A stretch of 64,000 nucleotides of DNA from Bacteroidales bacterium (GTDB lineage Bacteria > Bacteroidota > Bacteroidia > Bacteroidales > VadinHA17): the NCBI GenBank assembly GCA_011620595.1, contig WOYX01000034.1:20056-84055 (forward strand). Direction: 5' to 3'. A program made the position numbers and the translations under genes. The notes under the pieces are model-generated. The model was not told the DNA's origin. It saw nothing but the letters and a program-made list of their open reading frames with translations, and did no database searches. This document shows, one piece after another, positions 1 to 7,656 of this stretch (positions are counted from its first letter, which is position 1; every line of letters begins with the position of its first letter).

Positions 1-3000
1 CAGATATGGCAGGAATAGCAGGGCTGGAATTACCCGCATAAGCCCGTATTTGTCCCCTGTAGGTTGCAGAGGTACTTATAAAATTCAGGTTCCAGAGTGG
101 AGATGTAGTGTTTATATACGCGTTTCTGCCTGTTGGCACGGTTATATTTATTGTGCCGCCGGTGACATAACAATTGTTGGAACCAGAGCCAAGAATAAGG
201 CTGAAGTTTGATCCGGAGCCACCTGTTATTGTTGTCGGTGAAAGAATGTTAATCGTACCTCCGGTCATTTTGAAAACATTATCCGGATATGGAAGTGTGA
301 ACGATGCATAGATGTTCAGCCCGCTAATGTTATAGGTGTTTCCTTCGATATTGAGGGTGCCTCCTGACATGATGAAGGCACCCCTGTGTGCGCCCGAGAT
401 ATATGAGGTACGAATGCAGTCAGTGGTAACAACACCAGACTCAATTATTAATGCGCTCTGATCACGCATTACTATCCCCTGGTTACCATTGGCGTTAAGC
501 GTTGCCTGGTTTGAAACCCGGAGGTTGCCATATACAACTATGGAAGAGTTCGATGCCGCTGCAGAAAATGTAACATCTGCCCCGTCAAGCCATAGCTGTG
601 CATCAAGGTCTATGTTGTAAACGGCATCGCCTGAAAGACTGGGTAACACAATATTAGGTCCGAGACGAACGGTTCCGGCAAGAAGACCCAGAGCATTTGG
701 ATTTTCAATGGCCGGAGGATCATTTGATGGCGGGCTTGACTGCAGATTGGACCTTCCGAACAACTTGAAATTGGTATTATTACTGGCATCTATATTAAGA
801 ATATAGGTCTTGTCAATACCCTTGTCAATTTCTATCCTGTAAAAATCACTCTGTCCGTTGCAAATGAGGTTCTGGTTTGCATTGGGATTATTGAAGACCA
901 GGTCAGATCTGCCGTTGGAGGGCGCTGTTGTGTAACCGGGGGTAGCCTGATTGGTCATCCTCACCACCCCTTCGTTTGTAAAATCTCCGTTGACTATAAA
1001 CCTGTGATTGGCATTTCCCGTTCCAATGCCTATGCTTCCGCTGGTACTGACATCAACATTACCTGCCACCGTCACATTCCGTCCTGTTGAGGAGCCGTCA
1101 TTAATCTGAAGCTTCCCGCTGGTAATGGTCAGGTTCCCGTTAAGGGTCATATTACCTGTCAGCGTTGCTACTATGGCCGAGGATGAAAGATTTATTATCA
1201 GGTTATTATATGACAGCTGGGAGAATGTAAAATTTGAAGTGTTGTAATATTCCACCGTACCTCCATCCTCTGAAACAAAATTACTCCAGTCACCGGAGGG
1301 AAATGCACTTGTCTGCAATCGTACAAGTCCTGCTCCACGTATAACAGTGAAGTTTTGTGTTGTATAGGTCCCGAGGTCAAGAATTCCCCCCTCATTGATC
1401 TGAAGAGAAAGGACGCTTTCGCCATTTGCTGTTATGGATACCGTACGGCCATTAAGTATAACAACCCTGTCTGTTGCTGATGGTACTCCCGGGCTAACGG
1501 ACAGTGTTCCTGACGGATCCTTGGTCCATGTGCCTGCTGAGTTCCATGATCCTGACTGGTAGGAGTAGTATGTTCCATAGACCGGCTCCTCGCGTGCGGT
1601 CCACTGGCCGCTGAGAGTTGAGGTTCCCGATACGGTCATCGGATTTGTTCCTGCTGCACTGTAAAAAGCCGGCTGAGCCCAGACGCCTCCGGAATAAAGA
1701 TAAGGAACGTACTTAGTCTGATCACCACCGGATCCCACTTCTCCGGGGTTAATATATGTAAGCTTTATATTTGCGGATATCCCGCTTATGCCGGTGGTTG
1801 AAACACTCCAGTATTTCATCAGATCAGTACTGGCAGCGGCCGGAGGCCCCGGAGCCGTACCCGCAACAGCCCTGACACTGATGCTTCCTGTTCCGGTAAC
1901 GGTAGCTGTAAGAGCCGCAATTTCAAAAGGAGTGTAATTAGTGCCGGTTCCTACCGGGTAAACAACGGAAAAGGCAGAGGCAGTGGTTCCCAGTTTAATA
2001 AGGCTTCCACTACCGTCGCACACAATCATATGGGTATTGTTGAATGATCCGGAAGTTGTAATTGTTGCCCCTGTCCCAATTGTAAGATCATAGGCCCCGG
2101 ATCCGAGACTGAGGTTTCCATTGCTGAGGCTCAGGATTCCGGCAACAGATATACTGCCCTGCATTGTTTTGGTACCCCCGCCACTGACAGTGATATTTCC
2201 GTAAGACTGAGCTGATATATCCTGTGCTCCGGCAAAGCCATATACAACCGTTGAGCCCGGGTCAATAATTTCAATGCCAGACCACACTGTATTTGATGAT
2301 ACATTATGATTGTATGTTGCCCCATTATCGAGTTGAAAAGTTGTGGCTGCAGAAAGAGATATTGCTGAATTAGCGGTAAGAGATGCTCCACTTTCCACCT
2401 CTACTTTTGTGTTGCTGCCCGAAACGCTCCAGGCTGAGCCGGCTGTCATGGAATTAGAAGCCTGAATGACAAATGTCTGGTTGTTGGCCGTAAAACTTGC
2501 CGGACTGCTACCCCCTCCGGCTCTGTTTGTATTCCAGCTTGAAAGAAGTGCCGGATCAGAATTTTGGGAATAATATATTAAACTGGGCGGTGCAATATTC
2601 AGAGTATAATCTTCAACTTCACCGTCGAACCCCGTATCACAGGAAGCAGGATATGCACGATACCTGGCAGAAACCCTCATCCTGACAGTGCCGGTGACGG
2701 CTCCGGCAGGAACGGTAATGCTCAGCGGGCTCAGGCTGGAAGGACCATTGGCTGTGTTGACAGCAGTGCCAAGGTTATAGGATTCTCCGGAATCATTAAA
2801 ACTTCCATTCCCGTTCCAGTCAATCCATGCCATTGCATTAACGGTATAGGGGCCATCTGTATTCAGGTTGACGGTCAGGTTATAAGAGCTGCTCTTGATA
2901 ACATCGGTAACCAGCGATGTGTAATCACTATATCCTAAAGGTTTGCCGCTGGAGTTGCTGATCGTATTGATATTTACATAAGTTATGCTTGTCTGGTAAG

Positions 3001-3991
3001 TCATATTACCGCTTGAAGTACAATAGGTAACTATTGAATTCCCAGTTACGGCAACGTTTTTAACGGCAGAACCTCCCCCGCTGTTTGTAATATTACCGCT
3101 ATAATTCGTGCCGGGATTTGTCGGGCTAAACCGGGCATAAATAGTAGTCGCAGCCAGTGTCGACGATGTAAAAGGAACATTAATTGATGAGGCAAAGCCG
3201 GAACCGGAGCTTAATGAGACCTCAAAGTTGGACGGTGCCGCAACGTTAATATTCCCTGCGGAGGGAAATAGCCCCGCACCGGAAAGTGTATAGGTCATGT
3301 TGGATGACGTCGAACCGCTGGCTGCAAAACCAAAATCGAGACTTGTCGGCGTAACAAAAAGGCCGGGAGGATTCCCTTTTATTTCAATATTATCTATTCG
3401 GTTATAACCTGAAGCACTTACCGTACCACCCCCTATTGAGGTGTTTGAGGTCATTATCCAGCGAAGCTGAAGAGCAGCCTGATTGTCACATGCGGCAGGC
3501 AGGGCGAGATTATTTAATACGCCTGTTGTGAAATTATTTTCGACAGTAATTGAGCCCCCGGATACCGCAACCCATCCTCCACCAATATTATACTCAAGTC
3601 TAAAATCTTTCGGGCTTTTTGTTGAGCCCTGATCACGTCCTCTTTGAGCAGATGAGACGGTTATATTATAGTACCCCGTGGTAACAATGTTAATGTACCA
3701 GTATTTTGATCCGCTGCCATTATTCCATGATGTAGCCTGGGCGCAGTTTGTGCTTGCCCCGTTGTTGGAATAGTCAATTGCAGAAGTTCCCCCTACTGTA
3801 GAAATGGTTTTTGCCGCATTTGCGGCAATACCCCCATCGCAGATTGCATTATCCGGATCGTTGGGGAAATTCCATGTTGCTAATGTTGTCTGCCCCAACG
3901 CTGTGTTGTCCAGCCCCGACAAGATGATAAGTACAGCGCTGAAAATCAACGTCCTTAATAAGTCTTTACTGCATGGTGATAGTTTATTCAT
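1..3991 (-). CDS. Large secreted GEVED-domain surface/adhesin-like protein, C-terminus truncated by window edge
   Basis: Read manually on the minus strand from ATG at 3991 (MNKLSPCSKDLLRTLIFSAVLIILSGLDNTALGQ, signal peptide-like). The frame agrees at the GEVED site (near 2610-2630: CDTGFDGEVEDYTLNI) and at the left edge (RAYAGNSSPAIPAIS). Low-complexity Ser/Thr/Gly/Asn-rich beta-strand composition. Missing from the ORF track because it has no stop in the window. Confidence 0.85.
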   Translation of the reverse strand, partial: MNKLSPCSKDLLRTLIFSAVLIILSGLDNTALGQTTLATWNFPNDPDNAICDGGIAANAAKTISTVGGTSAIDYSNNGASTNCAQATSWNNGSGSKYWYINIVTTGYYNITVSSAQRGRDQGSTKSPKDFRLEYNIGGGWVAVSGGSITVENNFTTGVLNNLALPAACDNQAALQLRWIMTSNTSIGGGTVSASGYNRIDNIEIKGNPPGLFVTPTSLDFGFAASGSTSSNMTYTLSGAGLFPSAGNINVAAPSNFEVSLSSGSGFASSINVPFTSSTLAATTIYARFSPTNPGTNYSGNITNSGGGSAVKNVAVTGNSIVTYCTSSGNMTYQTSITYVNINTISNSSGKPLGYSDYTSLVTDVIKSSSYNLTVNLNTDGPYTVNAMAWIDWNGNGSFNDSGESYNLGTAVNTANGPSSLSPLSITVPAGAVTGTVRMRVSARYRAYPASCDTGFDGEVEDYTLNIAPPSLIYYSQNSDPALLSSWNTNRAGGGSSPASFTANNQTFVIQASNSMTAGSAWSVSGSNTKVEVESGASLTANSAISLSAATTFQLDNGATYNHNVSSNTVWSGIEIIDPGSTVVYGFAGAQDISAQSYGNITVSGGGTKTMQGSISVAGILSLSNGNLSLGSGAYDLTIGTGATITTSGSFNNTHMIVCDGSGSLIKLGTTASAFSVVYPVGTGTNYTPFEIAALTATVTGTGSISVRAVAGTAPGPPAAASTDLMKYWSVSTTGISGISANIKLTYINPGEVGSGGDQTKYVPYLYSGGVWAQPAFYSAAGTNPMTVSGTSTLSGQWTAREEPVYGTYYSYQSGSWNSAGTWTKDPSGTLSVSPGVPSATDRVVILNGRTVSITANGESVLSLQINEGGILDLGTYTTQNFTVIRGAGLVRLQTSAFPSGDWSNFVSEDGGTVEYYNTSNFTFSQLSYNNLIINLSSSAIVATLTGNMTLNGNLTITSGKLQINDGSSTGRNVTVAGNVDVSTSGSIGIGTGNANHRFIVNGDFTNEGVVRMTNQATPGYTTAPSNGRSDLVFNNPNANQNLICNGQSDFYRIEIDKGIDKTYILNIDASNNTNFKLFGRSNLQSSPPSNDPPAIENPNALGLLAGTVRLGPNIVLPSLSGDAVYNIDLDAQLWLDGADVTFSAAASNSSIVVYGNLRVSNQATLNANGNQGIVMRDQSALIIESGVVTTDCIRTSYISGAHRGAFIMSGGTLNIEGNTYNISGLNIYASFTLPYPDNVFKMTGGTINILSPTTITGGSGSNFSLILGSGSNNCYVTGGTINITVPTGRNAYINTTSPLWNLNFISTSATYRGQIRAYAGNSSPAIPAIS

Positions 3992-4044
3992 TACTTTCTC
4001 AGAACCAAAAAGTGAATATTAAAAGACAGAACGCTTATTGAAAT

Positions 4045-4890
4045 TCAGTCCAATTTCAATTCTGCCTCGGCATATTTTTCAGGTTTTACATCGGAGGATG
4101 CAGAGAAGGTAACCCGCAGTTTGCCGGTGCTGAAATCAACGCCAGGGACATTTTGAAGGTTAAATTCAAATTTTCTGACGGTGTTGGGCGTATAGACCGC
4201 CAGACCATTGGCAATGCCCACACGGGTTATCACACCGCCGGGTGATATATGGTCAACGGAGATATCACCGTAAACAGAATAGTCTCCTGCGCGATTGAAT
4301 TTAAATGCAACCCTGGGAACAGTGTCATTGACAAAATTCAGGGCCAGATCTGTGAGAAAGACATTTACAGAGGGTTCTCCCACCCTTATTATTACCGGGA
4401 TGGTTATCCCGAATACAGGCACCAGCTTGATGGAGATGGTTGAAGGATCCTGCTGTACCTGCGGTTCTTCACCGAGGGGCTTCTCCTTGGGCACGGCCCT
4501 GAAATAGAGATGAGACCTGTATTCGCCTGGCTCCAGCTCCCTGATTCTTGTTGCCTGGATTTTTATCGTCTGTACTTCATCAGGGCTCAGGGTTACTGAC
4601 CTGGGAAAGAACCGCAGGTAGGGACTTGCGAACTGCTGTCCTTCATCAGGTTCGGTGATTGTTTCAAAGGCACCCTCTTCGGTCATCCTGATCTGCACGA
4701 ACGAGATGTTGTAGGTGGCCGTGTCGTTTCCGATGTTGGCCAGGCTCAGGTCCACCGACCTCTGCCGGGCATCAAGAACCACTCGTCTGGGGGTGACGAG
4801 AAGGTCGCCCTGTGCCCTTGCAATAAATGGAAAAAAAACCTGAATTAGGATCAGGCCTGCCGTAAAAAGCCGCATAGATAGCTTTGTCAT
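4045..4890 (-). CDS. PapD-like periplasmic (fimbrial-type) molecular chaperone
   Basis: 281 aa; signal peptide; Ig-like N-domain (GDLLVTPRRVVLDARQRSVDLSLANIGNDTATYNISFVQIRMTEEG) and GEYRSHLYFRAVP motif typical of PapD-like chaperones. Confidence 0.85.
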   Translation of the reverse strand: MTKLSMRLFTAGLILIQVFFPFIARAQGDLLVTPRRVVLDARQRSVDLSLANIGNDTATYNISFVQIRMTEEGAFETITEPDEGQQFASPYLRFFPRSVTLSPDEVQTIKIQATRIRELEPGEYRSHLYFRAVPKEKPLGEEPQVQQDPSTISIKLVPVFGITIPVIIRVGEPSVNVFLTDLALNFVNDTVPRVAFKFNRAGDYSVYGDISVDHISPGGVITRVGIANGLAVYTPNTVRKFEFNLQNVPGVDFSTGKLRVTFSASSDVKPEKYAEAELKLD

Positions 4891-4920
4891 TATATCAGGT
4901 TTTAGTGTTTCTTTCAGCGG

Positions 4921-5454
4921 TCAGTTAAACTCAAATGTTATTGTGTAAGTACCCGTATAAACTCCCACGGGATTATCATTCAGGGTTCCTACATTTAGTG
5001 TGGCCCCCACATATACCACCTGAGATCCGTTTTCCAGCACGCCGGCTCCCGGCTCTGCCTCCGGCACTGACCGCCACTCTTCCACCGTCATGGTTCTGGC
5101 CGATCCCATGTGCGTTATGGTAACCGGATCCGAAGGCAGGCTTACAGTAAAAGCCACCCCCGGATCTCCGGTGACATAAAAACTTGCAGCGCTGTGAGTA
5201 CCGCTGCCCGGCCATACGCTGCCCATGACCGAGATAGAGCTTTCCGGTGTAAGTATAAGCTTGCCTCCCTGTGGCCCCGGTGAAAATTTACCAAAACTCA
5301 GCTGTGTGGTCTCCGTGGCAGCCAGCGTTGAAATAACCTCTGCAGTAATATGACCTGTTACCGTCGAGGCTGTCGCTGACTGTGCCTCCGCCGTAACGGC
5401 GGAGACACAGGTTAAACATATTAGGCTAATAAATACAAGTCTGAGCCTTTTCAT
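4921..5454 (-). CDS. DUF4402 domain-containing secreted protein
   Basis: 177 aa; signal peptide; TASTVTGHITAEVISTLAATETTQLSFGKFSPGPQGGKLILTP pattern and C-terminal GVYTGTYTITFEFN strand typical of DUF4402. Confidence 0.8.
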   Translation of the reverse strand: MKRLRLVFISLICLTCVSAVTAEAQSATASTVTGHITAEVISTLAATETTQLSFGKFSPGPQGGKLILTPESSISVMGSVWPGSGTHSAASFYVTGDPGVAFTVSLPSDPVTITHMGSARTMTVEEWRSVPEAEPGAGVLENGSQVVYVGATLNVGTLNDNPVGVYTGTYTITFEFN

Positions 5455-5482
5455 TATGTTTAAGACAGTCTCTGATATGTTT

Positions 5483-5986
5483 CTAGTTATAATTAATAGT
5501 TACCGGGAAATTTGCAGAGGTATACACACCCGCTGCCTGGGCTGCACCAACTGACAGGGTGGCTCCTACGGTAAACGCAGCAGCACCTGTACCGTCCAAT
5601 GCAGGCGTACCGCCAGCATTATGAACAAAATCGTTTGCCGCCATTGAATTCGTCCCGTTGACAAGAGTGACATCACCGTTGGCAGGAAGAGTAATGGTGT
5701 ATGCCCGGCTGGCTTCTCCCAATATGGTAAATGATGCGGCAACACCGGCAGCGGGAGGAACAAGTGCAGGTCCGGTTGCAGTCCTGGAGTTATCGGTGCC
5801 CAGCACAACAGTTCCTGCGGTACCGGTAACGGCAATGATACCAAAATCCATGTCGCTCACCTTGGTTAGCTTAAGACCTGCGATAATGCTTGCCGTTGCC
5901 GTCGTCTGTGCTGTAGCACTTGACTGTGCAAAGCTGCCTGCGGTGAATGCGATCATGATTACTGAAAATAAAAGAATCTTTTTCAT
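5483..5986 (-). CDS. DUF4402 domain-containing secreted protein
   Basis: 167 aa; signal peptide; ATASIIAGLKLTKVSDMDFGIIAVTGTAGTVVLG and C-terminal GVYTSANFPVTINYN; paralogous to the next gene in the cluster. Confidence 0.85.
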   Translation of the reverse strand: MKKILLFSVIMIAFTAGSFAQSSATAQTTATASIIAGLKLTKVSDMDFGIIAVTGTAGTVVLGTDNSRTATGPALVPPAAGVAASFTILGEASRAYTITLPANGDVTLVNGTNSMAANDFVHNAGGTPALDGTGAAAFTVGATLSVGAAQAAGVYTSANFPVTINYN

Positions 5987-6252: not shown

Positions 6253-7656
6253 TCAGAAGCTGCTGCTGCCATCCCAACAGTGTGTGCAGAGTTTTTCACG
6301 TGGCAGTCCGATAGCCTGCACCAGGTCGTCAAGACGCTGGAACATAAGGGTATCCATACCTAATGTGGATGCTATCTCATTGACCATCAACGAGTATTTT
6401 TCGGAATCGGGATCAAGATAGTCTTCAATGTTCTTCTCCTCTCCCTCCAGCTTTACAACAGCCTTGCGGGCGGCAAGCTCGAGGGTTGAGCGCGACTGTG
6501 AGAAGTTGAGAAAGGGACATGGATAGAGCAGCGGCGGGCAGGCAATCCTCATGTGAAGCTCGCCGGCACCTGCTTCACGCAGGTCCTTTGTGTTGTCCCT
6601 GAGCTGCGTTCCCCTGACAATACTGTCGTCCAGAAAAACAATCGTCTTGTCTTTTGTCAGCTTCTTGTTGGGTATCAGCTTCATCCTGGCCACCAGATCG
6701 CGTTGTACCTGACGCTGCGGCATGAAGCTCCTGGGCCAGGTGGGAGTGTATTTTGAAAAGGAGCTCATGTAGGGAACAGATTTCTCGTTGACATAGCCCA
6801 GGGCATGTCCTACTCCCGAATCGGGAACACCGCAGACAAAATCGGCCTTCACCGTATCACGTTTGGCCAGCGCAGCACCACATCTGTAGCGAACCTCCTC
6901 AACATTCCTGTCTTCATATTCGGAGGTCGGAAAACCGTAATAGACCCAGAGGAAAGCACATATCTGCATCTTTTTTCCCGGTGCCTTCAGCCGAGTGAAA
7001 CCATTGGAGCGCAGATGTACTATCTCTCCGGGGCCAAGAAAATATTCAGTATCAAAGCCTGTATTGGGAAAGGAGCATGTCTCCGAAGCTACCGCCCTGG
7101 CTCCCTCCTTCCTGCCGATTACCACCGGCGTACGGCCCAGCCTGTCGCGCGCGGCAATGATACCATCCTTGGTCAGCACCAGAAGGGAACATGACCCCTT
7201 GATTTTTTCATAAACCCGGGTTATGCCCTCGACAAATGAGTCTCCCTCGCAGATGATGTTTGCAACCATCTCGGTGGGGTTGATGTTACCCATGAAGTTT
7301 TCGGTGAAATGCATTTTCCTGGCGAGGAAATAATCAGCCAGCTCGGTGATATTAACTATCCGCGATACGGTGACCAGGGCAAACGGCCCGAGATGTGAGT
7401 TGAAAAGTATGGGCTGCGGGTCAGTGTCGCTGATCACTCCCATACCACTGTTTCCGCTGAAATCCTTAAGTTCTGCTTCAAATTTGTTCCGGAAATACTC
7501 ATTCTCCAGGTTATGAATGCTCCTCCGGAAGCCTGTCCCGGAATCATAAAATACCATCCCGGCACGCTTGGTGCCCAGATGTGAATGATAATCAGTGCCG
7601 TAAAACACATCATCAACGCAGTCCCTGTCGGATACAGAACCGTAAAATCCACTCAT
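6253..7656 (-). CDS. Amidophosphoribosyltransferase (PurF) family protein with N-terminal Cys replaced by Ser
   Basis: 467 aa; N-terminal Ntn-type glutaminase-like domain (MSGFYGSV...GTKRAGM); PRPP-binding loop IVFLDDSIVRGTQ. Confidence 0.85.
   Translation of the reverse strand: MSGFYGSVSDRDCVDDVFYGTDYHSHLGTKRAGMVFYDSGTGFRRSIHNLENEYFRNKFEAELKDFSGNSGMGVISDTDPQPILFNSHLGPFALVTVSRIVNITELADYFLARKMHFTENFMGNINPTEMVANIICEGDSFVEGITRVYEKIKGSCSLLVLTKDGIIAARDRLGRTPVVIGRKEGARAVASETCSFPNTGFDTEYFLGPGEIVHLRSNGFTRLKAPGKKMQICAFLWVYYGFPTSEYEDRNVEEVRYRCGAALAKRDTVKADFVCGVPDSGVGHALGYVNEKSVPYMSSFSKYTPTWPRSFMPQRQVQRDLVARMKLIPNKKLTKDKTIVFLDDSIVRGTQLRDNTKDLREAGAGELHMRIACPPLLYPCPFLNFSQSRSTLELAARKAVVKLEGEEKNIEDYLDPDSEKYSLMVNEIASTLGMDTLMFQRLDDLVQAIGLPREKLCTHCWDGSSSF

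Follow-up and report, generated by a model that had tools for sequence, protein, structure and literature searches.

A putative divergent chaperone-usher pilus system with DUF4402 pilins in Bacteroidota

Chaperone-usher pili have a published range of Proteobacteria, Cyanobacteria and Deinococcus-Thermus, in which Bacteroidota are not included (PMC4654587 among the sources), and the best-studied fimbriae of Bacteroidota, those of Porphyromonas, are reported to lack chaperones and ushers. Here we analyze a 64,000-nucleotide stretch of a Bacteroidales genome, referred to as the window (C59:20056-84055, where C59 is our label for the 84,055-base contig WOYX01000034.1), which contains part of an operon encoding DUF4402 proteins, a PapD-like chaperone and a giant surface protein. 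Since the window starts well inside the contig, the DNA to its left could also be read; a window position is the C59 position minus 20055. We consider the locus to be a complete, divergent chaperone-usher pilus system with DUF4402 as the pilin, at a probability of roughly 0.86. The chaperone-usher pathway had not been credited to Bacteroidota in the literature searched, where DUF4402 is mentioned nowhere; most subscription papers were outside that search, so an earlier description is possible.

Operon layout and the usher

The operon comprises six genes, all on the minus strand, in the order pilin A, pilin B, chaperone, giant, pilin C and barrel protein. A preliminary description of the window had listed the first four, separated by gaps of 28, 30 and 53 nt, and re-reading of the DNA bore out these coordinates and gaps. 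The signal peptides it assigned to all four were also recovered by eye, as each N-terminus has a signal-peptide-like hydrophobic stretch, mostly ending near AQ. The same description saw no usher and suggested that one might lie past the left edge. Extending the contig leftward, as it had advised, revealed both a candidate usher 8.6 kb beyond that edge and a C-terminal domain of the type IX secretion system (T9SS) on the giant. The usher gene (C59:7670-11440, minus strand) lies outside the window, 36 nt after pilin C, and encodes a barrel protein of 1,256 aa with SPOR repeats.

Structure prediction placed the family of this protein among the ushers. The protein modelled with AlphaFold2 was the homologue from Chitinophaga oryziterrae, not the protein of this genome (872 aa, 46-row alignment, mean predicted local distance difference test score, pLDDT, of 83.6). 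In the model, an N-terminal domain precedes an extended series of barrel-like strands, and beta-sandwiches follow at the C-terminus. A short insert at residues 332-371 breaks the barrel series after about six strands, at the position that the plug occupies in FimD. In a Foldseek comparison with the PDB, places 1-18 were all held by FimD and PapC, with E-values of 1.3e-26 to 4e-12; the next match was an SdrD structure at 1.2e-10, and other barrels followed at ~1e-5. Judged by the homologue model and its fold matches, the barrel, plug insert and periplasmic domains of an outer-membrane usher are all present.

Profile comparison gave a similar picture. An alignment restricted to Bacteroidota matched E. 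coli ushers weakly (E 0.0012), and the match to the seven ushers of E. coli K-12 improved to E 1.2e-8 over 460 columns because proteobacterial homologues served as a bridge. The same extended profile matched an archaic usher at E 1.1e-6 and FimD as a single sequence at 0.023, while the control barrels LptD, FhuA and BamA gave 0.3-0.4. SPOR domains, which bind denuded septal peptidoglycan, were found in 19 of the 32 ushers scanned; the ushers that bear them may therefore be wall-tethered, and the SPOR repeats of many members probably tie the usher to peptidoglycan. Usher size and number varied among the loci: in L139 the usher reaches an unusual length of 1,853 aa, and in L167 two usher genes (870 and 1,403 aa) stand in tandem, both with a DUF4402 gene in front.

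Pilins, chaperone and the giant protein

Pilin A (window 5483..5986, minus strand, 167 aa) and pilin B (4921..5454, minus strand, 177 aa) were both matched by the Pfam DUF4402 model (E 3e-26 and 1e-25), in agreement with the preliminary description. Each has an N-terminal extension, which in pilin A is a candidate donor strand. A third DUF4402 protein, pilin C (C59:11477-12064, minus strand, 195 aa), was found outside the window, 12 nt after the giant. An AlphaFold2 model of pilin A built from 35 sequences reached a pLDDT of 90.6, with strands at residues 39-166; the chain from the signal peptide up to residue 39 is unpaired. The 23 best matches of this model in the PDB were without exception chaperone-usher pilins, among them Caf1, CfaB, FimA/F/G, PapA and the PapG pilin domain, with probabilities up to 1.00 and TM-scores mostly of 0.3-0.4. 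The model thus has the incomplete Ig-like fold and N-terminal extension of a pilin, the missing strand being judged from a chain that ends at its last predicted strand. That the DUF4402 proteins are chaperone-dependent fibre subunits had been proposed from the window; these matches support the proposal, as do the co-occurrence and co-localisation of their genes with those of the chaperone and usher.

The three pilins differ at their N-termini. In pilins A and B, the distance from the putative cleavage site to a conserved FG is mostly 24-30 residues, while most pilin C proteins have 17-19 and either start Pro-rich or enter the first strand almost at once. The donor strand of CupE is 13 residues long. 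A subunit that accepts a strand and donates none belongs at the tip, so pilin C, which appears to lack a donor extension, is probably the tip subunit. Pilin A is the probable shaft subunit, and pilin B a candidate second shaft or adaptor subunit. By inspection, none of the three has a lipobox cysteine, and hence the lipoprotein signal peptide of type V pilins is absent. The cysteine pair reported in archaic pilins is also missing from pilins A and B, and in Pfam the pilins match DUF4402 only, not the spore-coat-U family of the archaic clade.

The chaperone (4045..4890, minus strand, 281 aa) had been called PapD-like from the window. In Pfam, the protein itself gave only sub-threshold fn3_5 and Big_14 matches, and the call proved right through its homologues. 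PapD_N matched weakly in 11 of 23 of them (best 3e-5) and exceeded its cut-off in two from Proteobacteria, those of Novosphingobium and Polaromonas JS666; the Polaromonas protein matches the window chaperone at E 2e-42. Profile comparison gave E 2.9e-8 against eight E. coli chaperones and E 1.3e-5 against an archaic one. In CsuC, proline P59 is invariant in the chaperone superfamily, and R89, together with R174 and Y196, anchors the pilin C-terminus in archaic and alternative chaperones (PMC4654587). P96, R125, R200 and Y233 of the window chaperone are invariant among 27 homologues and nearly so after the proteobacterial ones are added. The equivalence of P96 and R125 to P59 and R89 is backed by alignment with the archaic chaperone, and R200 and Y233 would correspond to R174 and Y196 by their position in the second domain. 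The locus thus has a PapD-like chaperone with the superfamily proline, and also the Arg and Tyr anchor of the archaic clade, a feature shared with the alternative clade.

The giant (full gene C59:12077-24046, minus strand, 3,989 aa) has only its N-terminal third in the window, at 1..3991, and the remainder lies to the left; its GEVED domain was recovered by Pfam (E 2e-19), as previously noted. Its N-terminus is signal-peptide-like, and its tail, scored alone, matches the T9SS type A sorting domain (TIGR04183) with 26.9-27.0 bits against a cut-off of 23; scored as a whole protein, it falls below that cut-off, at 21.7 bits. Eight of ten giants carry such a tail above the cut-off when tails are scored alone, and the giants in view measure between 598 aa and 4,397 aa, some of them being truncated where a contig stops. 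This genome also has the core T9SS gene SprA, matched with 2,632 bits. Given the tail and SprA, the giant is most likely exported by the T9SS. The preliminary description had taken the GEVED protein for a fibre adhesin or cap, a role made less likely by this tail and by the absence of a DUF4402 domain from the giant in Pfam. It had also named an usher and the T9SS as alternative routes; both were found. Searching the PDB by sequence with the chaperone, usher and pilin returned nothing relevant, and in NCBIfam the only useful matches were of the SPOR type and the T9SS tail.

The following assembly route is suggested by these parts. Pilins A, B and C would enter the periplasm by Sec, where the PapD-like chaperone would complete each partial Ig fold with one of its own beta-strands and ferry the subunit to the outer-membrane usher. 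At the usher, the N-terminal extension of the next subunit would displace the chaperone in donor-strand exchange, and the fibre would emerge through the plugged barrel. Pilin C would be exported first, as the tip, with A and B forming the shaft or an adaptor, and the usher would be anchored to peptidoglycan by SPOR repeats in many members. The giant, made from the same operon, would reach the surface through the T9SS and act beside the fibre or dock on it. A hybrid organelle, in which two secretion systems build one structure from a peptidoglycan-tethered DUF4402 chaperone-usher fibre and a T9SS-exported giant docked on the fibre or its tip, is a possible but rather unlikely extension of this route.

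Conservation and spread of the operon

The operon is conserved well beyond this genome. Within the family of this bacterium, 65 of 117 genomes gave a match to the barrel protein at E<=0.001, although in some the match is confined to the SPOR part. In 34 relatives, wherever the contig reaches far enough, these six genes recur in this order, except for one diverged form, and the chromosomal neighbourhoods of the operon differ among them. Such an order, conserved in dozens of genomes, ruled out chance neighbours. Scanning GTDB genomes gave 353 stretches encoding a relative, and the 80 named loci returned from these span uncultured Bacteroidales to Chitinophaga, Niastella and Daejeonella. Minimal forms occur too: Niastella populi has DUF4402-chaperone-DUF4402-usher, and loci of other classes have DUF4402-chaperone-usher. 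Nine Bacteroidales loci (L146, L147, L149, L151, L153, L155, L156, L168, L176) share a neighbourhood and have a DUF4402-usher pair with no adjacent chaperone, which they may borrow from elsewhere in the genome.

The preliminary description had looked to co-occurrence of DUF4402 with PapD-like genes in the phylum, and this was found, with the usher included. In a sample of 397 genomes from across the phylum, 82 have the usher, 68 have DUF4402 and 107 have the chaperone (at a loose threshold). DUF4402 and the usher occur together in 62 genomes, or 62/68 of those with DUF4402 (Fisher p 2e-47, uncorrected for relatedness), and all three genes lie within 5.8 kb in 38 tabulated genomes.

Of 69 distinct operons in which both the chaperone and the usher could be seen, 36 encode a protein with a T9SS-like tail, and in 35 of the 36 its gene comes after the chaperone and before pilin C. 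At the median, the tailed gene and pilin C overlap by 4 nt, as do chaperone and usher in three-gene forms. SprA is absent from 19 usher-positive genomes, so the pilus core appears independent of the T9SS. One family without SprA (f19; genomes G160, G214, G373, G452 and others) has several DUF4402 genes per genome beside a chaperone and usher, and could display the system in a T9SS-independent form.

Outside Bacteroidota, the DUF4402-chaperone-usher core is found together on plasmids of Polaromonas, Sphingopyxis and Novosphingobium, where the ushers are annotated only as carboxypeptidase-like or hypothetical, and on a plasmid of Pseudoalteromonas a chaperone-usher pair is accompanied by a weak pilin candidate. 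The gene content of a Deferribacter desulfuricans megaplasmid (L197:7878-13457) suggests that the system extends to Deferribacterota. There, two chaperone-like fragments flank IS200/IS605 tnpA-tnpB beside DUF4402 and usher-like genes, and the element appears to have split the chaperone gene.

In this genome, the nearest gene upstream of pilin A lies 266 nt away, likewise on the minus strand (window 6253-7656), and is amidophosphoribosyltransferase-like with GATase_7 (glutamine amidotransferase) as its only Pfam match. The Bacteroidota-type promoter (TTTG...TANNTTTG) was not found in these 266 nt, and sigma-70-like matches there were set aside as not meaningful in Bacteroidota. At the other end, an endonuclease IV-like gene on the same strand (C59, L004:6812-7654) begins 15 nt past the usher stop. 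It adjoins the usher in most genomes of the genus and not elsewhere in the family, and may be co-transcribed by accident of location.

Alternative explanations and comparison with known systems

Several observations weigh against a DUF4402 pilus. The Pfam usher model PF00577 did not match the usher, for which Pfam returned only SdrD_B/carboxypeptidase-regulatory and SPOR domains, and PF00577 was above its cut-off in none of 247 Bacteroidota genomes. Its only two weak matches in those genomes both fell on members of this usher family, and recognition by PF00577 is a sequence-model criterion, not a biological one. The fold matches of the pilin model have modest E-values (0.012 and up), and profile comparison of DUF4402 with known pilins, both E. 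coli families and the spore-coat-U pilin, was uninformative, aligning little beyond the N-terminus. Twenty usher-positive genomes have no DUF4402 by Pfam, and their pilins may be too diverged for that model. The evidence is computational throughout, and the fibre and its complexes are inferred from it. If DUF4402 proteins were soluble surface or periplasmic proteins and the barrel another exporter or porin, the modest pilin E-values would be accounted for, as would the lack of any described DUF4402 function in the literature searched. We consider this very improbable given the strong and specific usher fold match, pilin fold matches that are all to chaperone-usher pilins, the homology of the chaperone, and the three-part linkage across phyla.

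A more serious rival is that the locus is a plain archaic (sigma-clade) chaperone-usher pathway that annotation has missed in Bacteroidota, which would make it a range extension only. The archaic/alternative signature residues of the chaperone and the profile matches to the archaic chaperone and usher favor this. The lack of above-threshold PF00577 matches in the phylum and the use of DUF4402 rather than spore-coat-U pilins argue against it, and the classical E. coli ushers match at least equally well, although that comparison sets a seven-row alignment against a single archaic sequence. We regard the archaic assignment as unlikely overall. It is less probable still that the giant is a tip adhesin passing through the usher, with a C-terminal Ig-like domain held by the chaperone like a pilin domain. 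The near-constant place of its gene between chaperone and pilin C would suit such a role, but its C-terminus matches a T9SS sorting domain, it has no DUF4402 domain, and the core exists without it. The divergent DUF4402 pilus remains our preferred reading: structurally, the locus has what defines a chaperone-usher system, while failing recognition by PF00577 and lacking pilins of the archaic type.

If this reading is true, DUF4402 gains a testable function as a pilin, and a widespread usher family that at present is annotated as no more than carboxypeptidase-regulatory-like or SdrD-like gains a name. The pathway could be tested in cultured Chitinophaga ginsengisegetis, C. oryziterrae, Niastella populi and Daejeonella oryzae. 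A T9SS-type gene fixed inside the operon also raises the question of cooperation between two outer-membrane secretion systems.

Compared with the classical type 1 (FimC-FimD-FimA) and P pili (PapD-PapC-PapA), the locus shares the plugged barrel fold of the usher, a PapD-like chaperone, Ig-like pilins and a single operon; it differs in an usher missed by PF00577, DUF4402 pilins, SPOR repeats in many ushers, and a T9SS-tailed giant. Archaic pili (Csu, CupE) are alike in the chaperone residues P59/R89/R174/Y196, with counterparts here at P96/R125/R200/Y233, and in the usher and chaperone profile matches. They are unlike it in having spore-coat-U pilins, a cysteine pair that A and B lack, and a two-domain adhesin where pilin C is a single-domain candidate tip. 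The type V pili of Porphyromonas (Mfa/FimA) are likewise Bacteroidota surface fibres for which donor-strand polymerisation is proposed; their pilins, however, are lipoproteins that a gingipain protease matures, and they have no known chaperone or usher, while both are present here. T9SS type A cargo adhesins resemble the giant in its signal-peptide-like N-terminus and TIGR04183 tail, and what sets the giant apart from them is the fixed place of its gene within a chaperone-usher operon.

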